From positions 124,001 to 188,000 of the forward strand of contig JAFEDS010000005.1 of the NCBI GenBank assembly GCA_018241505.1: DNA of 64,000 nucleotides, read 5' to 3'. The first letter of the stretch is position 1. The number at the start of each line of letters is the position of its first letter. Shown here piece by piece: positions 10,637 to 21,393 of this stretch. The DNA comes from Pseudomonadota bacterium (GTDB lineage Bacteria; Pseudomonadota; Gammaproteobacteria; Steroidobacterales; Steroidobacteraceae). The position numbers were made by a program, and so were the translations under genes. Below the pieces are notes generated by a model, which did not search any database, had not been told where the DNA came from, and saw only the letters and a list, made by a program, of their open reading frames with translations.

Positions 10637-10879
10637 TTACTTGGGCGCCGGCTTCTTCGGCGCCGGTGCGCTGTGCATGATCGGCGCCTGAATCGGATCT
10701 CCGAACACCCGGCGTTTGGTCGGGTGTGGCGCGAATGAGCTTGCCTTGTGCGGCGTGCCTACCGGCTGATGGCTCTTCGAGATGACTTTGGCGGGTTTCT
10801 TGGGGCCAGCCGGGTTCTGCGCGAAAGCGCCACCCGCGGCAAACAACATCAGCGTAGCCACTACTATTGATCTCAGCAT
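10637..10879 (-). CDS. Small secreted Lys/Pro-rich protein
   Basis: An 80-residue protein with a clear signal peptide (LRSIVVATLMLFAAGGAFA, cleavage after AFA). The mature part is short, basic and Pro-rich (PKKPAKVISKSHQP, PAPKKPAPK) with no cysteine and no recognisable domain. It is the last gene of the minus-strand cytochrome operon, starting 9 bases after the lipoprotein stop. Its location argues for an envelope role linked to the cytochromes, but nothing in the sequence says what that is. Confidence 0.6.
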   Translation of the reverse strand: MLRSIVVATLMLFAAGGAFAQNPAGPKKPAKVISKSHQPVGTPHKASSFAPHPTKRRVFGDPIQAPIMHSAPAPKKPAPK

Positions 10880-10888
10880 AACGACCTC

Positions 10889-11446
10889 TTAGTTGCCGGA
10901 AGCCAGCGCTCCCAACTGACGCCGGCCCTCCTTCCACACATCGAACGGGCGAGCATCCTGATCGCCTTCCAACTGCAGGCGCACGTGCTGCGCTGAAGCA
11001 ATGAAGCGCAAGGTATCGCGATCGGTCTTGTAGATCCGCGGCGGCCCGCGGAAATGCAGCGGGCGCAGCAGGGGTGTTGCCAGCCCCACCTCGTGCAAAC
11101 TCCGGCCATCGCGCTGCAACCTGATAGCACGCTCATCCGCCAGAAACACCAGTGTCTCTCCCGGATGCGCACCGGCACCGAGCCGCGCATCCACCGTCGA
11201 CCAGATGTAGACGAGCAGTATGTACTCGTAACGGCCTTGCCGGTTGACGCTCGTTGCTACCACATTAACGTACTGGCGCGAGTTTGCGGCAACGTCCTGG
11301 TGAGCGCGGGCGAAGATCATCGGCGCGGTCACGCTGCTGACCATAGCGGCGGTAACCGGATCGAGGTGCTCGTCCGGATGCCGGGGAGGCCGCGCCTTGC
11401 ACGACAGCAGGCTGAGCGAAACGAGGATGAGTATGAGGTTTCGCAT
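10889..11446 (-). CDS. Putative lipoprotein of the multiheme cytochrome cluster
   Basis: 185 residues starting at ATG 11446, one base after the stop of the upstream barrel gene. The N-terminus RNLILILVSLSLLSC ends in a lipobox (LLSC), so it should be lipidated and anchored to a membrane. The mature region has beta-strand-like segments (YEYILLVYIWSTVDARLG, ETLVFLADERAIRLQRDG, HVRLQLEGDQ) but no family I recognise. The same frame is open far upstream inside the barrel gene; that extension is not coding. The tight spacing implies co-translation with the barrel protein and a possible assembly or partner role, which is inference. Confidence 0.7.
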   Translation of the reverse strand: MRNLILILVSLSLLSCKARPPRHPDEHLDPVTAAMVSSVTAPMIFARAHQDVAANSRQYVNVVATSVNRQGRYEYILLVYIWSTVDARLGAGAHPGETLVFLADERAIRLQRDGRSLHEVGLATPLLRPLHFRGPPRIYKTDRDTLRFIASAQHVRLQLEGDQDARPFDVWKEGRRQLGALASGN

Positions 11447-11447
11447 G

Positions 11448-13928
11448 TCAGAAGTTGATTCGATAGCCGATGCTGACGAACAGCCGGGTCGTATTGCCGA
11501 TCTCGAGGCCCGCAGGGTTTTTACCAAACTCCGCGCCGCCTTCAATCTCCAGCACGTGACCGTGCCTTTGATAGTCCACATGCGCATACGGGGCATAGAA
11601 GATTGACGTATAGCCCGCATCGGTGACTCTACGCTGAAACAGCAGCCGCGGGCCCGCCCGCCAGGCCCCAAATACCGGGTAGCGGGAGATGAGCTGCCAG
11701 CCGAGTACATCATAGGTCGGGGTGGTGTCATATCGGACCACGACCTGGTTGAAATCATTCGGCCGCAGCAGGCTCGAGCCCAAGAGCTGTACCTGGTAGG
11801 AGATGTCGTTGCCCTGGGTGCCTGTAAACTGCTCCACGCCTCCGGAAGCGGGCGCGTCCGACAGTTTCGTATAGAACACGTCGAAGATTGTTTGGAAGCG
11901 CTCACCCAATTGCTTGATAGCAGACAGCGAGTAGGTGGACAGGACCGGGGTGCGGTCTTTGGCGAGGTCGAAAATCTGTTGTTCGCTGAATACTTTCTGC
12001 AACTGCGACAGCGTGCTGGACGCCTGGCCGATGAGGGCGTTTGCCGCGGTGATGAGCGGCGCATTGCGATGCTCGAGGTCCATGGTGAGCTGCCAGCGGG
12101 CCGGCAGTTGCACAGTTCCCAGCAGCACCAGCGCATTCAGGGACTGGAAGCGAGTGTCGTAGTCCACGTAACTGACGACCGACACAGCGGGGCGCGCATA
12201 TTGAACCTGGGCGCCCACTGCCTGCCGGTCTTTCAACCCGTCATTTTTTTGTTGAGTCACGTAGAGGCTCGTGTCCCAATGCGACAGCGCGGGCGCAAAA
12301 TCGACGGCCAGTGTTTCGAAGCGGCGATCCGTCTCGATGCCGTCTCCTGAGTTGTCCACAGGCATTCCGACGGTGGCGCGTACGGTCCATGATGGCGCGA
12401 AGCGGTAGGATACCCGGGCCCCGTCAAAGACACCGAAATTGCCGTCATTGATAGTCGTCTGACGGCCTATGCGACCGCGCAGGTCCCAGAGCTTGTCATT
12501 CACGTCCAGGAACGCTGTTGTAATCCGTACCCGGTCTGTCGCGCCCTCGATATCCCGCGGCAGAAAGTTCTTGGCGTAGCCGAAGTTGGTCCGGAATCCG
12601 GTGGTGAAGCGCTCGCCATCCTTGTGGGCATACAGGTCGGCGTCGGTGAAAATTGCATTCTCCACCACTGTGGCAAACAGCGGCCCATTCAGGTCGGTTC
12701 CATAGCTGTCCCGGCGGAATAGCTGCGAGGCACCGCCGGACAATTTCCAACCGTGGTCCGCGTCCTGTGTGTTGTCGAGCGCTCCGGTGCGACCGGCCAC
12801 CGAAGCGGCCCGAAGGATACGCAGTCGGGTTCTGATACGGTCGGCAGCAGGGCCCTCAGGGTAGCGGCGCAGGTACTCCTCGTACTCGGCTTTCGCCTGG
12901 GTTACTTCTCCTGAGCGCTCGCGAGCCAGCCCCAGCACCTCCTGTACGTCCGCGCGCTGCGGAAACTCCGGTTGCCGTTGCAGCTTGGTCAGAATCTGCA
13001 CCGCTTGTGGATAGTCCCGGGCACGCATGGCCGCGTGCGCCTGGTCCAACAGGCTCTTTAGTTGAGCCGCGTCCATGGGAGGATCCATGCCGATGTGTTC
13101 AACGGGGGGCAGAGGGGGTTCCGCGACGGCGGCGTTGGGATCGTTGGTGATGGAGTCATCGCCTACCGCAAGCCACGCTCGTGGGTAGTCCTTCGTTGCG
13201 CTCCGGAGTACGCTCTCCGCAACGGGACGTTGATCGAAGGGGCCGACTCTCAGGCGGTACCATTTTTCGCCGCCGGTCTCCACTTCTGACACAAACGCCT
13301 TTGTCTGGAGACGACTGCCGGCCTGTTCGACTGCCGCTGCATCGAACGGCTGACGCTGCGATTCGAGGTTGATTGCATAGTTGCTGGCAGTGTCGCCTCG
13401 CTCGGTGACGAGTACGCGGGACTTTCCTTCCTTCGCGCGCAGCAGGCGGATTCGCATGCCCGAGGCGCTGGCTCCTTGCGCAAGGACAAAGGATTCCGGC
13501 TTCGCCCAAGTGAGGGTCAGAGTAACTTCGGCGCCGAGCGAGGACTCCAGGCGCGCGGAGGTGAGAATTCCCCGGGGGCCGGAAATAGGCGGGATCTCCG
13601 TGGTGATTCCCCCACCGGCAGCCAATGCACCCGCGGCACCACAGTCCCGGTCAACACGCAATCGCAGCCTGACCTCAGGTCCCTCGCTGGCCGGGGTATG
13701 GCCGGCATAATGCAGTGAGCAGTTGAATTGAAGCGTGATATCAACCTGCGACTCACGCTCGTCGATGTCGATGACATCAATCAGTTGTGACGGGCCCTGA
13801 GACTGCAGTTGCTGTTGTCCCATGCCACGCACCTGCGCTGCTCCCGGGTCGGGCGCCAGTGCAACGACCACGGCTGCAGCGAGCGCTGCTGCCTGGACTA
13901 GCCGCCGAGGCGCCTTAATGGAACGCAC
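11448..13928 (-). CDS. SPOR-TPR-beta-barrel outer-membrane protein of cytochrome cluster
   Basis: 826 residues. It has a signal peptide (VQAAALAAAVVVALAPDPGAAA-like, ending about residue 31). An N-terminal beta-rich domain follows. A SPOR-like repeat lies near residues 180-255 (QRQPFDAAAVEQAGSRLQTKAF ... KWYRLRVGPFDQRPVAESVLRSA). TPR-like helices lie at about 285-370 (AHAAMRARDYPQAVQILTKL, YEEYLRRYPEGPAADRI). The last 440 residues look like a large beta barrel of repeated amphipathic strands, ending in SIGYRINF with the terminal Phe typical of BAM-assembled proteins. Its start overlaps the 12-heme cytochrome gene by 14 bases. The barrel next to two multiheme cytochromes suggests a porin-cytochrome conduit. 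It is not a recognisable MtrB homologue, and an exopolysaccharide-type TPR-barrel is an alternative. Confidence 0.72.
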   Translation of the reverse strand: MRSIKAPRRLVQAAALAAAVVVALAPDPGAAQVRGMGQQQLQSQGPSQLIDVIDIDERESQVDITLQFNCSLHYAGHTPASEGPEVRLRLRVDRDCGAAGALAAGGGITTEIPPISGPRGILTSARLESSLGAEVTLTLTWAKPESFVLAQGASASGMRIRLLRAKEGKSRVLVTERGDTASNYAINLESQRQPFDAAAVEQAGSRLQTKAFVSEVETGGEKWYRLRVGPFDQRPVAESVLRSATKDYPRAWLAVGDDSITNDPNAAVAEPPLPPVEHIGMDPPMDAAQLKSLLDQAHAAMRARDYPQAVQILTKLQRQPEFPQRADVQEVLGLARERSGEVTQAKAEYEEYLRRYPEGPAADRIRTRLRILRAASVAGRTGALDNTQDADHGWKLSGGASQLFRRDSYGTDLNGPLFATVVENAIFTDADLYAHKDGERFTTGFRTNFGYAKNFLPRDIEGATDRVRITTAFLDVNDKLWDLRGRIGRQTTINDGNFGVFDGARVSYRFAPSWTVRATVGMPVDNSGDGIETDRRFETLAVDFAPALSHWDTSLYVTQQKNDGLKDRQAVGAQVQYARPAVSVVSYVDYDTRFQSLNALVLLGTVQLPARWQLTMDLEHRNAPLITAANALIGQASSTLSQLQKVFSEQQIFDLAKDRTPVLSTYSLSAIKQLGERFQTIFDVFYTKLSDAPASGGVEQFTGTQGNDISYQVQLLGSSLLRPNDFNQVVVRYDTTPTYDVLGWQLISRYPVFGAWRAGPRLLFQRRVTDAGYTSIFYAPYAHVDYQRHGHVLEIEGGAEFGKNPAGLEIGNTTRLFVSIGYRINF

Positions 13929-14988
13929 CGTCGGTCACCCTGTGATGGCCGGCCGGCCGCGTTTTGGCAATGGTCGTCAACTTGGCATCGGTGTAGATGT
14001 GGCAGGCACCGGCGCAATTCTGCAACTCGCTGAGGTTGTAGGTCATGCCCTCGACGGTCTTGGTATGCGCCTCGGGTTTGAAGGCGTTGGCATGGCAACC
14101 CCCACATCCAGGCCGATAGGCGGCGAACTGCCACGTGGCCTTGTCAGTGTTGGTGTTGTGGCACGAAGTGCAGCCCGGGGCGCCTTTGTGCTCGCCCGGG
14201 AATTCTGCCGATCTATGCGAGAACGTAACCGTCGACCAGCTCGGGTAGTGATGACATGTCGAGCAGTCGAGTGAGGTGGTCATGTGATCGGCGACTTTGC
14301 CGGTTGCCGCACCCCCGTTGTGGCACGTCAGGCAGTTGGCCACGAGACCTGTGTGGTCGAAGCGGGCAGGGCTCCACGAAAGGGTGCCATGGCATGCGCC
14401 GCAGTCCTGCGTTGTTGGCACGTGATTACGAGGTACGCTCGCTGCGCGGACACCGGAGTGACAGGTGCGGCAGGAGCTACCCACTCCATTGATTCCTGCC
14501 TTCGCCACCATGTTGATGCCCGAGTGCTCGAACCGGGCCGGCGTAAAGGCGTTCGTCGTATGGCACGCATCGCAGTTGTTGTCACTCTGGATGTGGCCCG
14601 GGTTCTTGCCCATGGCCTTGGCGCCGTTGTGACAACTGAAGCAGGTACCTCGTACCTGCAGATGATCCATATGTACGATAGGCAAGAAGTTATATTGGGT
14701 GTGGCACGCCTCGCAGTTGTCCTGCGTCAGGATGTGGGTCACGGGACGGGGAGTCGAGCTCACTCGTGACCCGGGTGTATGGCAGCCAACGCATGTCCTG
14801 GGCGTCCCCTTGAAGACCCCCTGCTGATGGCAGTATTCACATGCGAGATCGCGGTGGAAGCCGCGCAGCTCGTAGCCCGTAGTGAGGTGATCAAACTGGG
14901 TGCGCTGGACCGCGGCGGCATGAGGCAGCAGAATGAGAACCAGGACTAGTACCAGTGCCGCGGTGATTGTGCGTGTTCCCCGGACCAT
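13915..14988 (-). CDS. Twelve-heme cytochrome c family protein
   Basis: 357 residues with a signal peptide (TITAALVLVLVLILLPHAAA) and eleven canonical CxxCH heme-binding sites, from CEYCH near residue 50 to CGGCH near 296. A twelfth atypical C-x3-C-H site (CAGACH) follows near 323. Heme spacing and the alternating free histidines (FEHSGIN, FDHTGL, FSHRS) look like the class III/doubled-CXXCH group, with bis-His hemes. It is exported and should be matured by the Ccm system. It lies 12 bases after the 21-heme gene and overlaps the barrel gene, so all three proteins are likely made together. Role as an electron wire between periplasm and outer membrane is inference. Confidence 0.88.
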   Translation of the reverse strand: MVRGTRTITAALVLVLVLILLPHAAAVQRTQFDHLTTGYELRGFHRDLACEYCHQQGVFKGTPRTCVGCHTPGSRVSSTPRPVTHILTQDNCEACHTQYNFLPIVHMDHLQVRGTCFSCHNGAKAMGKNPGHIQSDNNCDACHTTNAFTPARFEHSGINMVAKAGINGVGSSCRTCHSGVRAASVPRNHVPTTQDCGACHGTLSWSPARFDHTGLVANCLTCHNGGAATGKVADHMTTSLDCSTCHHYPSWSTVTFSHRSAEFPGEHKGAPGCTSCHNTNTDKATWQFAAYRPGCGGCHANAFKPEAHTKTVEGMTYNLSELQNCAGACHIYTDAKLTTIAKTRPAGHHRVTDGAFH

Positions 14989-15000
14989 GAGTGCTGTTCC

Positions 15001-16563
15001 TTAGTTAGTCCGTGGGCGCTTGAAGGTGGTCGTGTTGTGACACTGCTGACACTCTTTCCCGAAGCGTCCCTGGTGCACATCGTTACCGGAATGACACGTA
15101 CCGCAGATCATTGAGGGCTTCACCACGTTCTGCGGCCGGATATGACAGTCAGCGCAACTCAGTCTTGCGTGGGCGCCCGACAAAGGGAAGCGGGTGTGGG
15201 TGGCGTGGTCGAAGTCCCACAGCTTCCAGCCGTTCGGGTTGTGGCAGTCGGAGCACTCCTTACCGAGACCGCCGTTGTGAACATCGTCCCTGGCGTGGCA
15301 ACCCACACATTCCTTCGGTGCATCATTGAACCGCTGAGTGGTATGGCACTGGCCGCAGGTCACAACTACATGGAGACCCATCAGCGGATACTTCGACTGG
15401 TCGTGGTCGAAGTTCACGTCAGTCCATTTAGTGGCCCTATGACACTGCTCGCAAGTCTTGCCCAACGTGCCGCCGTGGGGCTCGTCGGCGCGATGGCAAT
15501 CGATGCATTCCATGCCGAGCTTCTGATCTTTCACCACGTTGGTGTGACACACGTGGCAGTCGAGTTTGGCGTGGGCGCCAACGAGCGCGAAGTGGAATTT
15601 CTGCAGGTGATCGAAGTCTGTGACCTGCCACACATCGCTGCTGTGGCAGTCGGAGCACGCGGGCCCGAGCCGGCTCACATGCCTGTCATCCGTCTTGTGG
15701 CAGCCGACGCAGTCTTTCGGAATCGGGTCCTGCAAATTGCCGCTGCGGTGGCAATCGCCACAGCCGATCCGTGCATGCTTGCCATTCAAGGGGAAGCCCG
15801 TCTCGCGGGCATGATCAAATCTCTGGGAGGCCCAGTCGGCGGTCGAATGGCAGTTGGCGCACTGCGTACCCTGGCTGCCCTTGTGAACGTCATCTGGCGT
15901 GTGGCAGGCGGCACATTGCTTCGGTGTGTTCTTATATTGCTGGCCTGCGTGGCAAGCGGCGCACGGAACTTCGCGATGCTTGTTGGTGAGCGGGAAGGCC
16001 GTGTTCTCATGTTCGAACGTGTTTTTCTGCCATGATTTCGCGTCATGACAGGCCTTGCAGTCGACCCCGAGGCCGCCGCGATGGATGTCGTTCTTACGAT
16101 GGCAATCAATGCAGCCCGAGAGGGCTTTGCGATAGGGCGTATCAGGACGATGACAGCCGCTACACGCCACCGCCCCGTGCATGCCCTCCAGCGGGAAGCT
16201 AGTCAGATTGTGTGTGAAGCCGGCGTGGTTGAGTTTGTTGATATCGGCGTCGCGGCCCAGATGCTCAGTGTGGCAGCCACGGCACTGGCTCGTGGTCGAT
16301 TGCGGCATGCGGCCGTGATAGCGGCTCCTGGTGTTGATGTCCGCGGCGACTTCCTTGTGACAGTCGAGACAGAGGGCGGTCTGGCGTTCGCGGTTGGCGC
16401 GATCGTGGCAGTTGCTGCATTCACCTTCGATCTTGGCATGGGCCCTGGAGACGGGCCCCGGCATGATGAGCTTCTCGATGCTCGCGGCGTGGACCGCTGG
16501 GGCGACGGTCGAGGCGAGCAGCACGAGCAACAGCGCCTTGGCCAGGGTCCTGAAACCGAGCAT
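15001..16563 (-). CDS. Twenty-one-heme cytochrome c protein with triheme repeats
   Basis: 520 residues with a signal peptide (LGFRTLAKALLLVLLASTVAPAVHA) and 21 CxxCH motifs, one heme per 25 residues. The first three hemes lie in the N-terminal 100 residues. The remaining 18 fall in six tandem modules of about 67 residues, each with the order FPL-x-G-x-H, C-x2-CH, C-x2-CH, D-[DI]-VH-x-G, C-x2-CH, then W and FDH. The repeated free His (FDH, DVH) probably supply the sixth ligands. No other domain is present. It follows the cytochrome-b-like gene by 18 bases. Probable periplasmic or surface electron-transfer wire. Confidence 0.9.
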   Translation of the reverse strand: MLGFRTLAKALLLVLLASTVAPAVHAASIEKLIMPGPVSRAHAKIEGECSNCHDRANRERQTALCLDCHKEVAADINTRSRYHGRMPQSTTSQCRGCHTEHLGRDADINKLNHAGFTHNLTSFPLEGMHGAVACSGCHRPDTPYRKALSGCIDCHRKNDIHRGGLGVDCKACHDAKSWQKNTFEHENTAFPLTNKHREVPCAACHAGQQYKNTPKQCAACHTPDDVHKGSQGTQCANCHSTADWASQRFDHARETGFPLNGKHARIGCGDCHRSGNLQDPIPKDCVGCHKTDDRHVSRLGPACSDCHSSDVWQVTDFDHLQKFHFALVGAHAKLDCHVCHTNVVKDQKLGMECIDCHRADEPHGGTLGKTCEQCHRATKWTDVNFDHDQSKYPLMGLHVVVTCGQCHTTQRFNDAPKECVGCHARDDVHNGGLGKECSDCHNPNGWKLWDFDHATHTRFPLSGAHARLSCADCHIRPQNVVKPSMICGTCHSGNDVHQGRFGKECQQCHNTTTFKRPRTN

Positions 16564-16581
16564 GCGCGCCTGCTGCTATGG

Positions 16582-17502
16582 TCAGTACACGTGCACGGAA
16601 ATCACATGCACGGTGCCAGCGGCAATCAGCATGAGAAATAACGGCATGTGCAGTACGTGCCATACGGAGAACAGCTTCTCGTAGATCCGGAACTCAACTA
16701 CCTCCCGTGTAGCTCTCATCCTCCTGGCGACGTAGTCGAATGCTACACGTTCGAACCGGTCACTCTGTTTGGCGACTGCCTTGTGGCGTACGGCCGTGAC
16801 GCGAATTGCGGCTCGTGCATAGCGGCGCAGCCGTGAGCAGGCGCCGGAGAATCGAAATGCGATGGTGGGGGGTGCGAACAGCAGCAACGCCGGATGCCAT
16901 TCGGCCACCGCCAGCAGCCGTTGCTCTTCGTTTTCCACGTGGTTGGCCAGTTCCGGCATCATGAGGAGCTTGGTGGAGCGCTCGCGCAGTTCGGCGGCAC
17001 GCTCTTGCAATTCAGACAGCGTGGCCTTGCGCCCATACAGGCCGTGGTGAATTTTCGAGTAGAAATAGCGGCCGAAGATGCCACTGCCGGCCACGGTCAA
17101 CATACAGAACAGCGCGATGTTGCTGTTGGTGGCACCGAGACTGAAGCCGCAATGGATCAGGATGCAGACCGGACCGATGATGCCCATCATCATGTGCGTC
17201 TGAAACCAACCCGGGACACTCCCCAGCCAGCGCAGCGAGGGCACGCGCTTGCGGACGGCATATAACAGTTGCGCCAGGATCAGCGTGCCGCCGACGATAC
17301 CTATGGCATATCCCAGGCCGCTCTTGGGACTCAGGTAATGCGCGACCGGGAGCTGGATGCCGGCAATCAGCACCAGGGCCGCGCCTGCGAAGATAATCTG
17401 TTCAGTGGAAAAGCGTGAGCGCGCCTGCGGCATGGGGGCTAGCCGGTCGCCCGAGCGTGACAGTGCGGCACCTTTTTTCGAGATGCGTGCCTCAATTTGC
17501 AC
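16582..17502 (-). CDS. Cytochrome-b-like integral membrane protein of multiheme cluster
   Basis: The open frame starts farther upstream, but the sensible start is GTG at 17502, with GGGAA upstream, overlapping the previous gene by 11 bases (306 residues); ATG at 17433 is the alternative. Four hydrophobic segments lie in the first half and a last one at the C-terminus. Histidines sit in or near the segments: FQTHMMMG, CILIHCGF, SKIHHGLYG and the terminal SVWHVLHMPLF ... GTVHVISVHVY. Paired histidines of this kind are typical of b-type heme ligands in quinol-oxidising subunits. A polar helical stretch (SELQERAAELRERSTKLL) lies between them. It is most likely the inner-membrane entry point for electrons from quinol; heme binding is inferred, not shown. 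Confidence 0.68.
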   Translation of the reverse strand: MQIEARISKKGAALSRSGDRLAPMPQARSRFSTEQIIFAGAALVLIAGIQLPVAHYLSPKSGLGYAIGIVGGTLILAQLLYAVRKRVPSLRWLGSVPGWFQTHMMMGIIGPVCILIHCGFSLGATNSNIALFCMLTVAGSGIFGRYFYSKIHHGLYGRKATLSELQERAAELRERSTKLLMMPELANHVENEEQRLLAVAEWHPALLLFAPPTIAFRFSGACSRLRRYARAAIRVTAVRHKAVAKQSDRFERVAFDYVARRMRATREVVEFRIYEKLFSVWHVLHMPLFLMLIAAGTVHVISVHVY

Positions 17503-17896
17503 GGGCGTTCCCGGTAGCGCCGCTGCTGCCCTGGGCATGCGGTTTGTCCAGGGCATCGGCGATATCAGCGATCTCCTCGCCAGTCGCCTGGCCTGCTGCC
17601 TTGGGCGACGCAGAGGCGATATGGGCCCTTGCGGCGTCGGCGTCTGCTTTGCGCCCCAGGTAGTCGTACGACTCCGCCAGGAGCCTCCAATCGTTATCCG
17701 AGCCGCCCTCGGTGGCGAGGCGTGCCGCCAGCTTGTTTGTGACGTCATCCATAGAACCGGCAGTGGCCGAGGGCTGCGGGGACATCGTGGCGTGGTGGAC
17801 CGGCGGTGTTGGAGGCAGCCAGGCATGCGTGCCCGCCAGGATGGCGCTCGCGACGAGCGCACCGGCAATAAACCAATATGAATCGCGGCGTGACAT
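17492..17896 (-). CDS. CcmI/CycH-like membrane-anchored TPR protein
   Basis: 134 residues from ATG 17896 (AGGG upstream; a TTG ten codons earlier is possible). One N-terminal membrane segment (YWFIAGALVASAILAGTHAWL) is followed by a Pro/Ser-rich linker and a single TPR-like helix pair: NKLAARLATEGGSDNDWRLLAESYDYLGRKADADAARA. That layout matches the C-terminal TPR part of CcmI/CycH, which holds apocytochrome c during heme attachment, but it is much shorter. As first gene of the cytochrome operon it could be a dedicated chaperone for the two multiheme proteins. Assignment is by pattern and context. Confidence 0.6.
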   Translation of the reverse strand: MSRRDSYWFIAGALVASAILAGTHAWLPPTPPVHHATMSPQPSATAGSMDDVTNKLAARLATEGGSDNDWRLLAESYDYLGRKADADAARAHIASASPKAAGQATGEEIADIADALDKPHAQGSSGATGNARAN

Positions 17897-18124
17897 AAGC
17901 CCTGAGTTGAGTCGAAGGAATATCAAACGGAACAGTTGTAACGTGTGTTGAGGTAGGCGTCCACGCGTCGCGGTTCGCAGACGCGGGCGAATTGCGATTC
18001 AGTTCACACTAACATCCATGCTGCTTCGTCTGTGTGCACAGACGTCTATGCCGCCATGCTTTGAAAGGGTAGTTTGTGCCGGCGAAGCGCATGTGCCGCA
18101 CAGCCAGAAATGTGATCTGCGTCA
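17897..18124. other. Divergent promoter region of the multiheme cytochrome cluster
   Basis: A 228-base gene-free interval lies between the minus-strand seven-gene operon and the plus-strand oxidoreductase gene, so it must hold both promoters. The clearest feature is a perfect 8-bp inverted repeat listed separately. I could not define convincing -35 and -10 elements. Confidence 0.5.
18027..18044. promoter_or_regulatory. Candidate operator: 18-bp perfect inverted repeat
   Basis: CGTCTGTG, a 2-base TG spacer, then CACAGACG: a perfect palindrome of two 8-bp arms. It lies 80-98 bases before the oxidoreductase ATG and about 130 bases before the start of the divergent cytochrome operon. A dimeric repressor or activator site that controls both transcripts is a reasonable reading, but the binding protein is unknown. 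Confidence 0.45.
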
Positions 18125-19426
18125 ATGAGTGCCTGGTGGGTCGTTTATCTCATTCCATTGTTGAGTGCGTGGAGCTGGCAGGTTGCCAGGCGGCGCACGA
18201 TTGCGACCAAAGGCCGCGACGCGCGCGTGCAGGCGCAACGCGCCGGGCTCAACGAGCCTGTTTCACTCCATCCCGCGATCAATGCCTCGCTGTGTGTTGG
18301 ATGCAGTGAGTGCGTCAAGGCCTGCCCGGAGAAGGAAAACGATGTTCTGGGCATGGTTGATGGCAAGGCGGAGCTGATCAACCCCGGCGATTGCATCGGA
18401 CACGGCGCGTGTCGCACCTCGTGCCCGGTCGGTGCCATTTCCTTGGTGTTCGGTACAGCCAAACGGGGCATCGACATCCCGATACTGACCCCCGAATTCG
18501 AGACCAACGTCCCGGGCATTTTTGTAGCCGGCGAGCTGGGGGGCATGGGCCTGATCCGCAATGCACTCGTGCAGGGCACGGAGGCGGTCGAGGCCATTGC
18601 CCGCAGCAGGCCGCGGCGGCAGGGCATGATCGATGTTCTCATCGTCGGCGCGGGTCCGGCAGGTTTTGCTGCATCGTTGACGGCCATGTCGCTCGGCCTG
18701 AAGTACGTCACGCTGGAACAGGAATCGCTCGGTGGTTGCGTGTTCCAGTATCCGCGCGCCAAACTCGTCATGACCTCGCCGGTGGAAGTCCCGCTCATCG
18801 GCAAGTTGAGGATCACCCAGACTTCGAAGGAAGAGCTGCTGGAGTTCTGGCAGAACGTCGAGCGCAAGACCGGTGTCGCTATCCGCTACCGGGAGCGCGT
18901 TGAAAGCATTACCCCACGTGGCGGCGGATTCCTCGTCCGTACTTCCAAGGGCCAGTACGCAGCGGCGTCGGTGCTGTTGGCGATCGGGCGGCGCGGCACA
19001 CCTCGGAAGCTGGGAGTTCCCGGTGAGGAACTGGCAAAGGTGGTATATCGGATGGTCGATCCCGAACAGTATTCGGGGCAGCGGGTACTCGTGGTCGGGG
19101 GCGGGGACAGCGCCCTGGAAGCCGCGAGCAGTATTGCCGAGTCGACGAACGCCAAAGTTGCTTTGTCCTACCGCGGCGACGCATTCACACGCGCGAAGGC
19201 ACGCAATCGCGAGCGCCTCGAGAACGCCCGCCGCTCCGGGCGCCTGCACGTAGTATTGCGCTCGCAGGTTCGCCAGATCGCGGAAGACGCCGTGGTCATT
19301 GAGCAGGCCGGTAAACTCTTGCGAATTCCCAACGAAGTAGTAATCGTCCAGGCGGGCGGTATCGTGCCAACGGACTTCTTGAAGAACGTCGGCGTGCAGG
19401 TTCAAACGAAGTACGGCACGGCATGA
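18125..19426 (+). CDS. Membrane-anchored 4Fe-4S/FAD-NAD(P)-dependent oxidoreductase
   Basis: 433 residues. A membrane segment (residues about 2-20) leads into a ferredoxin domain: cluster 1 ligands are C57, C60, C63 and C67; cluster 2 has C90, C96 and C100, with His93 in place of the usual second Cys. Then comes TNVPGIFVAGELGGMGLIRNALVQG at 127-151, which in ordinary pyridine-nucleotide reductases is the C-terminal FAD motif, and only after it the dinucleotide fold GAGPAG (175-180) and the NAD(P) fold GGGDSA (325-330). The protein ends without a second G-x-F-A-x-G-D motif. No CxxC redox disulfide is seen. It probably passes electrons between NAD(P)H and the membrane chain of the divergent cytochrome operon. 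Its last four bases are the start of the ankyrin gene. Confidence 0.8.
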   Translation: MSAWWVVYLIPLLSAWSWQVARRRTIATKGRDARVQAQRAGLNEPVSLHPAINASLCVGCSECVKACPEKENDVLGMVDGKAELINPGDCIGHGACRTSCPVGAISLVFGTAKRGIDIPILTPEFETNVPGIFVAGELGGMGLIRNALVQGTEAVEAIARSRPRRQGMIDVLIVGAGPAGFAASLTAMSLGLKYVTLEQESLGGCVFQYPRAKLVMTSPVEVPLIGKLRITQTSKEELLEFWQNVERKTGVAIRYRERVESITPRGGGFLVRTSKGQYAAASVLLAIGRRGTPRKLGVPGEELAKVVYRMVDPEQYSGQRVLVVGGGDSALEAASSIAESTNAKVALSYRGDAFTRAKARNRERLENARRSGRLHVVLRSQVRQIAEDAVVIEQAGKLLRIPNEVVIVQAGGIVPTDFLKNVGVQVQTKYGTA

Positions 19427-21393
19427 AGCTGCGTCTGAGTCTGCTTGCCGCAGTTATATCAGGGTGTGTGAGCCACACCCCAGCGACCGTCATGCGGCAT
19501 GGGCCCGACAGTGGGCCCTCTGCCGAGGCAAAAGCGTCCCTTCGCACCAAGCAATTCAGCGCTGCCCTGCAGGAACTACGCGGGGCGGCTGATCACGGTG
19601 ATGTTGAATCGGAATACCTGCTCGGCTTGGTGTATGCCAGCGGGGTTGCACCCGAAGCGTCGCTGGCCGAGGCACGCCGTTGGCTGGAAGCTGCCGCCAA
19701 CAAGTCACACCCAAAAGCTGCGTTGGCACTCTCGGGTCTCCTCGCGGATGGCTCAGGGCAGGATCGTGCTGCTGCTGAGCGGTGGCTGACACGCGCCGCG
19801 AGTGAGGGTGAGCCTATGGCTGTGAAGCTGAAGGCCACACACTCCTTGCCGCTGTCGCCATCTCGTGAAGCGAAAGGAGACGCTGCCCTGGCGCGCGAGT
19901 TGTTGGTATGGGCGATTCGTCACGGTGACGGAGAAACAGTCGGCGCTTTCATAAAGGTCGCGGGCGTCGAAAATGCGGATGAGTTCGGCCGAACACCACT
20001 GCAGTATGCTGTGATGAGTGGGTCGGACATCGCCGTCCAACACTTGCTCGCGGCGCGTGCGGATGCTGATCACGCAGACCGGTTTGGCGTTACGCCACTG
20101 ATGCTGGCTGCCGAGGCTGAGAGCGCCAGCGTTCTCGATGAGTTGATCAAAGCCGGCGCCGACGTTAATGGGAAGGACAGCGTTGGCGATAGTGCTCTGT
20201 TCTACGCCGCTCGCGTTGGCCGAACCGACCATGCTCAACGACTGATTGCCGCTGGTGGCGCTCTCGATCAGTCGAATTCGGATGGTTGGACCGTCGTCGA
20301 TGTTGCGTCGAAGAACGGTCACGTGGAAACAGCACAGGTATTGAAGAAGGCGGGTGCCACGGAACATTTGAAAGCGCGTGTGCTGCGAGAGGGCGGCGGA
20401 GTGGATCCAACCCGCGGTGGTGAGCTGTATCGGGGCTGGCCCCCAATCGCAATTGCCGCCAGCCGTAACGATGCGCGAGTCGTGGCGGATCTCTTGGCAG
20501 GTGGCGCGCGCGCGGACGAACCGACTCCTCAGCGCGATACGCCGCTGTTGGTCGCTGCCAAGTATCGTGCACCTGCGGTCATCGCGCCTCTGTTGAAAGC
20601 GGGTGCGAATCCCGCGAGCTTCGATGGGAGTGGTGAGACACCACTTGGATATGCGGCGGCTCACGGCGAAGTCGAGGTGATTGATGCCTTGCTGCAGAAG
20701 GGTGTGTCACCGGATACCCGCGGTCACATGGAAGAGCCGCCGATATTGCGGGCAACTCGCGCGCATGACGAAGATGCAGTCAAACACCTCATTGACGCAG
20801 GCGCAAACGTCAACCTGCGGTCAGGCGGCGGGACGTCTGCTTTGATGGTCGCTGCTGGGTCTTCGGACTCGAAGATTCTGGATTTGTTGCTGTCTGGCGG
20901 TGCAAGCGTCGAGCTCACGGATAAAGCCGGAGGCGACGCGCTTTGGTTCGCCGCCGACAGCGGTACGGAAGAGATCGCGGACCGTTTGCTGGCTGCAGGC
21001 GCGCCTGTGGATTCCAACCGCAAACAAGAGTCGCCCCTGTTCGCCGCGGTGCGCGCGGGCCGAGCGGGGATGTTGGAGCATCTCATTCGCAAGGGCCTTT
21101 CGCCAAACGCGAAAGGCGCATCGGGCGATACGCCGATTATTTCTGCTGCGGCGCGCGGTGACACGGCGCTGGTGACAGTCTTGGTCGAAGGGGGAGCCAC
21201 CATTGACGAGCAGAACGACTCTGGCAATACAGCATTGATTGTTGCGGTCCGCGAAGGCCACACGAACGTGTGCAAGATATTGCTGAAGGGTGGGGCGAAT
21301 ACGCGCGTGCGTAACAAGGATCGAATTGATGCGCTCGACACTGCCAAGCGGCGAAACATGCAGGAGATCGTGGCGATGCTCGACGCGCATTGA
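19423..21393 (+). CDS. Ankyrin-repeat lipoprotein with Sel1/TPR-like N-terminus
   Basis: 656 residues, ATGA overlap with the oxidoreductase gene. The signal sequence KLRLSLLAAVISGC ends in a lipobox. Residues about 50-140 have Sel1-like helices (AADHGDVESEYLLGLVYASG, ARRWLEAAANKSHPKAALALSGLLADGSGQD). From about residue 180 to the end come roughly 13 ankyrin repeats, each with a G-x-TPLQ/LMLA-AA motif and a helix (for example EFGRTPLQYAVMSGSDIAVQHLLAARAD). It is a protein-binding scaffold, likely periplasmic and lipid-anchored. Its coupling to the oxidoreductase suggests it organises that enzyme or the cytochromes at the membrane, which is inference. Confidence 0.82.
   Translation: MKLRLSLLAAVISGCVSHTPATVMRHGPDSGPSAEAKASLRTKQFSAALQELRGAADHGDVESEYLLGLVYASGVAPEASLAEARRWLEAAANKSHPKAALALSGLLADGSGQDRAAAERWLTRAASEGEPMAVKLKATHSLPLSPSREAKGDAALARELLVWAIRHGDGETVGAFIKVAGVENADEFGRTPLQYAVMSGSDIAVQHLLAARADADHADRFGVTPLMLAAEAESASVLDELIKAGADVNGKDSVGDSALFYAARVGRTDHAQRLIAAGGALDQSNSDGWTVVDVASKNGHVETAQVLKKAGATEHLKARVLREGGGVDPTRGGELYRGWPPIAIAASRNDARVVADLLAGGARADEPTPQRDTPLLVAAKYRAPAVIAPLLKAGANPASFDGSGETPLGYAAAHGEVEVIDALLQKGVSPDTRGHMEEPPILRATRAHDEDAVKHLIDAGANVNLRSGGGTSALMVAAGSSDSKILDLLLSGGASVELTDKAGGDALWFAADSGTEEIADRLLAAGAPVDSNRKQESPLFAAVRAGRAGMLEHLIRKGLSPNAKGASGDTPIISAAARGDTALVTVLVEGGATIDEQNDSGNTALIVAVREGHTNVCKILLKGGANTRVRNKDRIDALDTAKRRNMQEIVAMLDAH

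Follow-up and report, generated by a model that had tools for sequence, protein, structure and literature searches.

A PCC3-type porin-cytochrome locus and its divergent flavoprotein gene in a Steroidobacteraceae genome

Gene content of the locus and its PCC3 core

The window analysed here is a stretch of 64,000 nucleotides from a gammaproteobacterium of the family Steroidobacteraceae (assembly GCA_018241505.1, contig JAFEDS010000005.1, positions 124,001 to 188,000), and our subject is a group of nine genes, designated A to I, at positions 10637-21393 within it. They include genes for a porin, two multiheme cytochromes (MHCs) and an inner-membrane protein (IMP), which match the porin-cytochrome cluster known as PCC3, and the gene of a flavoprotein, H, which is a near-obligate partner of PCC3. 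All nine open reading frames are present and uninterrupted by stops. Transcription from the minus strand runs in the order G-F-E-D-C-B-A; H and then I lie on the plus strand, divergent from the others. The features are as follows.

10637..10879, minus strand: A, a small secreted protein of 80 amino acids (aa), probably accessory, with no Pfam/NCBIfam match and no homolog in the loci searched
10889..11446, minus strand: B, a lipoprotein behind the porin gene, kept in related genomes, where homologs hold the same position
11448..13928, minus strand: C, the PCC3 porin, 826 aa, assigned by Pfam SPOR/TPR, an AlphaFold2 model and conserved position
13915..14988, minus strand: D, a PCC3 extracellular-type multiheme cytochrome, 357 aa, 12 hemes by motif count, with homologs
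15001..16563, minus strand: E, a periplasmic-type 21-heme cytochrome, 520 aa, with 21 CXXCH motifs and a signal-like N-terminal segment
16582..17433, minus strand: F, the PCC3 IMP, 283 aa, five predicted transmembrane (TM) helices, two WX3HX13H motifs and SGXXG
17492..17896, minus strand: G, a short TPR-like protein, 134 aa, with a hydrophobic N-terminal segment and a homolog in locus L023
18027..18044, no strand: a perfect inverted repeat (8-bp arms, 2-nt spacer) in the divergent G/H intergenic region, a possible operator
18125..19426, plus strand: H, an inner-membrane-anchored ferredoxin/FAD/NAD(P) flavoprotein, permuted, 433 aa, assigned by Pfam, alignment and model
19423..21393, plus strand: I, an ankyrin-repeat lipoprotein (Pfam) with a Sel1-like N-terminal part, 656 aa

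Read from A to F, the intergenic gaps on the minus strand are 9, 1, -14 (an overlap), 12 and 18 bases, while F and G are 58 bases apart; the last figure presumes that F starts at the ATG at 17433, a start backed by alignment with the 83% identical homolog in L023. An earlier note on this DNA had given seven minus-strand genes with gaps of 18 bases or less, which is right for all but the F-G pair. I overlaps H by 4 bases.

PCC3 was defined in 2017 by He et al. as a porin, an extracellular MHC, a periplasmic MHC and an IMP of about 300 aa, the IMP having five TM helices, an SGXXG motif and two WX3HX13H motifs (PMC5566968). Sideroxydans lithotrophicus carries two such clusters, Slit_0867-0870 and Slit_1446-1449, and in the second, as tabulated in PMC12016527, Slit_1446 is the IMP, Slit_1447 the periplasmic cytochrome, Slit_1448 the extracellular cytochrome and Slit_1449 the porin. 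The order F-E-D-C is that of Slit_1446-1449 and also that of L088, a metagenome-assembled contig labelled S. lithotrophicus that is not from strain ES-1. Identity to the proteins of this contig is 35% for F, 40% for E, 39% for D and 27% for C, the porin match extending across 584 positions with an E-value of 2e-42. PCC3 cytochromes are further marked by many hemes at few residues per heme (22-39), and E and D have 24.8 and 29.8 aa per heme. With its 12 hemes, D lies well under the extracellular median of 34 (the periplasmic median is 21) and inside the Gallionellaceae range of 10-35. Gene order, IMP motifs and size, heme density and a homologous large beta-barrel porin all agree with the PCC3 definition. 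Judged on these sequence features, the F-E-D-C core is a PCC3 porin-cytochrome cluster, a type known since 2017.

Two identities were considered for the locus and rejected: a novel porin-cytochrome system, ruled out by the match of the core to PCC3, and an Mtr/Mto/Pio system, for which no match to MtrB_PioB (PF11854) was found in the nine proteins or the host genome. The earlier note had called the system undescribed and distinct from both the known Mtr and the known Pcc systems. The distinction from Mtr stands; the four-gene core had already been named PCC3 (PMC5566968) and the name taken up by later papers, so that neither the novelty nor the separation from Pcc can be kept. What the note had made of the set as a whole was borne out, namely an envelope-spanning group in which a permuted flavoprotein and a heme-b-like subunit accompany two multiheme cytochromes and a barrel not of the MtrB type, and the gene order proved to be conserved. 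In Gallionellaceae PCC3 is complete in 26 genomes and partial in 11 more (PMC10734462), and it has been called 'functionally unverified' (PMC12442390).

The host assembly comprises 46 contigs that total 7.88 Mb, at 93.9% completeness and 5.67% contamination. Its contig C6 bears a second copy of the locus, diverged in sequence (L022, 4413-17742), which encodes an IMP, a porin, cytochromes with 21 hemes and 38 CXXCH motifs, lipoprotein B, the flavoprotein and the ankyrin protein. The 21-heme protein of that copy is 53% identical to E. With contamination at this level, the copies may come from different cells. E is carried by 11 of 60 genomes (the host and 59 relatives), and the cluster is more than a chance grouping since its core gene order is kept across genomes.

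The 33 heme sites counted in the earlier note were recovered in full, as 21 CXXCH motifs in E and 11 CXXCH plus one CX3CH in D. E is built of seven three-heme units. Each of the five inner units measures 67-68 aa, at a spacing of about 17-18-32, and the first is longer. Further evidence comes from the named loci, the best 80 of at least 561 H relatives in genomes of named species. Among the 49 uncut cytochromes found there beside an IMP (four cut ones are left out), the number of heme sites is 21 in 19 proteins, 24 in 19, 27 in eight, 18 in two and 10 in one. As 48 of the 49 carry multiples of three, E looks like a wire lengthened one three-heme unit at a time. The periplasmic PCC3 subunit of Gallionellaceae has 21, 24 or 27 hemes (PMC10734462).

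The final heme site of D is a CX3CH at 13999-14016, and the last site is likewise CX3CH or CX4CH in 21 of 27 extracellular cytochromes that adjoin a porin in the named loci. Relatives of D in the same genus include the 38-site protein of the C6 copy, one with 47 CXXCH motifs in G001 and others with 40-45 CX2-4CH sites in G002, G015, G020 and G033. D resembles them at both ends, which suggests a large repeat expansion or contraction in between. The contig of the nearest relative, G005, stops inside D. Against TIGR03508, the DmsE/MtrA decaheme family, D scores 34.1 and E 18.2 bits, far from the cut-off of 192.2.

In the porin C, SPOR passes its Pfam cut-off (28.3 against 21 bits) and the TPR models fall short of theirs (30.5 at best against 32.7). 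Among 30 aligned PCC3 porins TPR_9 is found in 24 (E-value at most 0.01) and SPOR in eight, which makes TPR a common and SPOR an occasional part of these proteins. The AlphaFold2 model of C (mc69d49600428; pLDDT 82.7, pTM 0.55) consists of a signal helix, a beta domain at residues 50-163, SPOR at 184-255, TPR at 287-380 and a barrel at 395-825 with 22 strands, counted by eye, an arrangement that differs from the Mtr porins. The SPOR, TPR and barrel parts that had been claimed for C can therefore be accepted. Foldseek against the PDB returned generic barrels, AlgE included, with TM scores of 0.44 or less among the 50 matches listed, and no barrel family of Pfam matches C. SPOR domains bind peptidoglycan, and one guess is that this part anchors C.

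The motifs of F lie at W76-H80-H94, S117-G121 and W258-H262-H276. The protein has five hydrophobic segments, and its WX3HX13H and SGXXG motifs are invariant in all ten aligned IMPs. In the named loci both WX3HX13H motifs are present in 60, and SGXXG in all, of the 61 IMPs that reach 250 aa. F likely holds two b hemes. No Pfam family matches F at an E-value of 0.1 or better, so it is not a member of PF01794 and has only the HX13H pattern in common with the ferric reductase domain (FRD). He et al. likened the IMP to the FRD domain yet gave it a quinone role (PMC5566968).

Flavoprotein H and its co-occurrence with PCC3

H contains Fer4 and Pyr_redox domains according to Pfam (Pyr_redox_3, E-value 5e-44). 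Behind two ferredoxin motifs come domains for the binding of FAD and NAD(P), nearest to those of YpdA and thioredoxin reductase (TrxR), and the best profile is TIGR04018. The FAD motif PGIFVAGE comes before the GxGPAG motif; in TrxR-like proteins a motif of the PGIFVAGE type usually lies near the C-terminus. Rotating the order of H widens the match to the TrxR profile from 2-209 to 2-292 of 300 positions and raises it from 77.0 to 86.8 bits, and the YpdA profile gains likewise, from 159.8 to 170.0 bits. H is thus a permuted ferredoxin/FAD/NAD(P) protein, as had been proposed. Its AlphaFold2 model (55 sequences; pLDDT 86.1, pTM 0.75) has YpdA 7a76 as its best structure match, with TM scores of 0.49 by the query and 0.63 by the target.

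The residues C57, C63, C67, C90, H93, C96 and C100 are invariant in all 55 aligned homologs of H, and position 60 divides equally between Cys and Ser (26 homologs each), with another residue in three. The only one of the eight cysteines in the H of this window to lie beyond the ferredoxin part, C205, is Cys in five of the 55. Since only the ferredoxin cysteines are conserved, H lacks a dithiol of the TrxR type. The hydrophobic N-terminal segment scores 1.6 or more in 50 of the 55 homologs, and Lys and Arg are more numerous behind it than ahead of it in 54; by the positive-inside rule, this pattern would place the redox domains in the cytoplasm.

The association of H with PCC3 was assessed by searching three whole-genome samples for both IMP and H: 276 genomes of the host's own order, 280 of the order of G423 and 398 from across the phylum. 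The samples were centred on the host or on G423, and G000, G305 and G423 recur between them. The cut-offs for the order-wide searches (1e-25 and 1e-60) were chosen beforehand, and the split between strong and weak IMP matches in the phylum was set after the gap had been seen. The host's order has 73 genomes with the IMP, 71 with H and 67 with both (Fisher p about 1e-51, kinship ignored). In 60 of the 67 the two genes share a contig, and 59 of these pairs are divergent and no more than 5 kb apart. The order of G423 gave 15 genomes with the IMP and 15 with H, with both present in 15; 14 of the pairs are adjacent and divergent and that of G305 is 8.4 kb apart. Across the phylum, strong IMP and strong H matches occur in the same six genomes. 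The IMP matches with E-values up to 1e-10 number 24 of 398, six at 1e-69 or better and 18 between 1e-15 and 1e-10, and a seventh genome, G066, has a partial H match of 1.3e-63; these 18 weaker IMP matches and the partial H match were taken for other families. In G101 and G425 the genes for H and the IMP lie on different contigs, each of which stops inside the gene for the extracellular cytochrome, and for this reason each pair of contigs looks like a single locus split in two.

The named loci give a view of the neighbourhood itself. All were reached through H and so leave PCC3 without H unsampled, which the whole-genome searches do sample. In the flanks fetched for the 80 loci there is an IMP in 64, a porin in 37, a multiheme frame in 54 and at least one of these in 71. 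The IMP is adjacent and divergent in 55 loci, on the same strand in six and 7-8 kb away in three, and H, IMP, porin and two multiheme frames occur together in 30. Among plasmid records a single one has H with an E-value of 1e-60 or better, pEMTOL02 of Emticicia oligotrophica (Bacteroidota; L156, 78197-89995). A PCC3-like row of genes on one of its strands encodes, in this order, CcsA, an IMP-like protein of 281 aa, H (49% identity), cytochromes with 23 and 40 sites and a 538-aa protein. The 281-aa protein has both WX3HX13H motifs, is 22% identical to F and matches the IMP profile with an E-value of 2e-40; the 538-aa protein has no match to the porin profile. H is the best conserved part of this module.

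H is therefore almost exclusive to genomes with a PCC3 IMP and is its near-obligate partner. Conserved co-occurrence of all nine genes, which the earlier note had made the test of its proposal, was found for F, E, D, C and H and, less widely, for I and B; it fails for A, which has no homolog in the loci searched, and for G, which is poorly conserved. The flavoprotein, the ankyrin lipoprotein and the TPR/SPOR parts of the porin are not mentioned with PCC3 in the main texts of PMC5566968, PMC10734462, PMC12442390, PMC8788666, PMC12016527 and PMC13386937, as far as these were consulted. A search of open-licence PMC full text, with preprints, supplements and figures outside its scope, turned up, among the matches listed, no description of a PCC3 flavoprotein or an equivalent. 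The flavoprotein partner of PCC3 is accordingly regarded, provisionally, as unreported.

A candidate electron path and its rivals

The reading that we favour, at a probability of roughly 55%, is that the working unit of PCC3 consists of five proteins, with H and F forming a split NADPH-oxidase-like module on a cytochrome wire. Electrons would be exchanged between cytoplasmic NAD(P)H and the FAD and Fe-S clusters of H, which would be held to the membrane by its one N-terminal helix, and then between H and the two putative b hemes of F at the cytoplasmic face. F would span the inner membrane, E, the wire of seven units and 21 hemes, would take the electrons through the periplasm, and D, seated at the TPR-barrel protein C, would link the periplasm and the cell surface. 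H and F would together have the layout of NADPH oxidases (NOX) and ferric reductases, a flavin dehydrogenase with a two-heme membrane domain, split over two proteins. To our knowledge, no porin-cytochrome system is wired directly to the nicotinamide pool.

NADH has a potential of about -320 mV. Outward flow, in which NAD(P)H would reduce an extracellular acceptor, would be the energetically simpler direction, because in the absence of a pump electron transfer through the b hemes then goes with the membrane potential, whereas inward flow to NAD+, for instance from an Fe(II) donor, would go against it. Expression data of S. lithotrophicus, in which both PCC3 clusters are less expressed with Fe(II)-citrate than with thiosulfate (PMC8788666), fit the outward direction. 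Those of strain ES-1, where one PCC3 set was largely undetected and the other alike in all samples (PMC12016527), are neutral. That PCC3 in general is a trans-envelope NAD(P)H:extracellular-acceptor oxidoreductase, found in Proteobacteria and on one Bacteroidota plasmid, and not (or not only) a system for quinone-linked iron oxidation, is a wider and more tentative claim, to which we would give a little less than even odds.

Several observations weigh against the five-protein reading with outward flow. The motifs of F suit a quinone-active cytochrome b equally well, and the clusters of H (18293-18424) may be unusual, with His93 in the usual place of a Cys in the second ferredoxin motif and C60 often replaced by Ser. 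Co-occurrence is no proof of contact between H and F, and the Fisher value given above takes no account of kinship. In the host's order six of the 73 genomes with an IMP have no H match (G039, where the contig begins inside the IMP gene, G543, G551, G629, G649 and G671), and four of the 71 with H have no IMP match (G044, where the H match is weak at 1.5e-61, G477, G642 and G668). Nine of the 80 named loci show no part of the PCC3 core in the flank. A contig end lies less than 1 kb away in five of them; as for the other four, L107 and L130 have an ankyrin gene, L138 has maturation-type genes and L135 has none of these.

The published model of PCC3 routes electrons to the quinone pool (PMC5566968), with F as a quinone-linked cytochrome b and an inward flow from a donor such as Fe(II); H would then be an accessory outside the main path. 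PCC3 is found in Fe(II) oxidisers, and in Sideroxydans CL21 the IMP gene of the second PCC3 copy rose as the cells gained iron oxidation (PMC12442390), which counts in favour of this model and against outward flow. The host genome also has a gene for a RuBisCO large chain, scoring 790.7 bits where the cut-off is 438, and this too would suit inward uptake. However, the S. lithotrophicus clusters respond to Fe(II)-citrate in the opposite sense, and H is tied to the IMP too closely to be incidental, its gene even standing between those of the IMP and the cytochromes in Emticicia. The model as published is in our view less likely than the five-protein reading, and a variant in which F is quinone-linked and H serves as a second point of entry is possible.

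The remaining rivals take one protein out of the path. H could have a part in cytochrome assembly, for instance as a source of reductant for the thiol pathway by which CXXCH cysteines are made ready, as would befit its TrxR-like fold, the CcsA gene in the Emticicia operon and the homologs of CcmF/NrfE, DsbE and NrfG/CcmI-like genes near H in five, six and 14 of the 80 named loci. This seems improbable, given the missing dithiol, the majority of the 80 loci that have no maturation genes nearby and the near-confinement of H to PCC3 genomes in all three samples; cytochrome c maturation, by comparison, is widespread. Least probable by far is that C is a polysaccharide exporter that merely neighbours the cytochromes. 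A TPR part joined to a barrel is also the layout of the exporters BcsC and PgaA, and AlgE is one of the generic Foldseek matches of C. Against this, a Pfam/NCBIfam scan of the nine proteins found no polysaccharide synthase among them, porin homologs adjoin multiheme cytochromes in many loci, and the model of C has 22 strands and stays at low TM scores in the Foldseek matches listed.

Accessory genes, related systems and significance

The remaining genes are conserved to different degrees. Homologs of B lie behind the porin in L022, L024-L027 and L071-L074, and one occurs in a single one of the 80 named loci (L153). The description of I as an ankyrin lipoprotein is supported by the ankyrin repeats that Pfam finds; its Sel1 match is under the Pfam cut-off, and a homolog of I follows H in 26 of the 80 loci. 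The homolog of G in the close relative G005 (L023) is longer, at 314 aa against 134. Calling G CcmI-like finds little backing, as G has no Pfam/NCBIfam match and the 314-aa homolog has no CcmI match. Its resemblance is confined to distant TPR proteins at comparable places, an example being a weak match to the NrfG/CcmI-like TPR protein of L069.

The gene for a CcmF-sized membrane protein is seen between or beside the PCC3 genes in both L065 and L069. That of L069 encodes a heme lyase of the CcmF/NrfE family and adjoins a gene for a DsbE-family (CcmG) protein, which suggests that some PCC3 loci bring their own cytochrome maturation parts. The heme lyase and the DsbE-family protein score over their curated cut-offs, the NrfG/CcmI-like TPR protein of L069 under its own. 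In the intergenic region between G and H, an 18-nt copy of the inverted repeat, 72% identical, lies 61 bases off at 17966-17983, and no consensus sigma-70 promoter was found at 17800-18250.

The locus can be compared with a number of described systems. It shares with PCC3 its gene content and order, the IMP motifs, the roughly 25 aa per heme of E and the periplasmic cytochromes of 21, 24 or 27 hemes; PCC3 in the published accounts that we could consult has four genes, to which the locus adds the flavoprotein, the ankyrin lipoprotein and the TPR/SPOR parts of the porin. MtrCAB, MtoAB and PioAB have in common with it a porin, a periplasmic MHC and an optional surface cytochrome, but the locus lacks MtrB_PioB and its cytochromes are of the c7/c3 type, with 21 and 12 hemes. 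In PCC4 the IMP bears the same motifs, and subgroup II carries an Fe-S gene upstream of it; however, PCC4 comprises three periplasmic MHCs and no extracellular one, and the two MHC genes of the locus do not fit it. The undecaheme, tetraheme, triheme, NHL and peptidylprolyl isomerase parts of Uet and the eight-heme periplasmic cytochromes of the porin-MHC cluster of Verrucomicrobia are also unlike the locus. The Methylobacter locus of PMC13322032 is of the MtrAB type and not of the present kind, and PMC5615132, PMC7399161 and PMC10553843 deal with other porin-cytochrome systems.

Comparisons can also be drawn for F and H singly. F, a membrane protein of five predicted helices, resembles the NOX/FRD and MsrQ-type proteins through its two HX13H pairs. 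The dehydrogenase of NOX/FRD proteins is an FNR-type domain; that proposed here, H, is by contrast a separate protein, permuted and TrxR-like, with ferredoxin motifs. The FAD/NAD(P) Rossmann domains of H are those of YpdA/Bdr and the TrxR-like family, from which H differs in its permutation, its N-terminal hydrophobic helix, its two ferredoxin motifs and its lack of a conserved CxxC dithiol.

PCC3 clusters have been candidate iron oxidases since 2017, and a near-obligate flavoprotein names a concrete point at which electrons may enter or leave them. A cytoplasmic flavoprotein partner predicts a dependence on NAD(P)H and makes the role of PCC3 testable on defined proteins. The flavoprotein gene would also mark PCC3 in genomes better than the fast-varying extracellular cytochrome.

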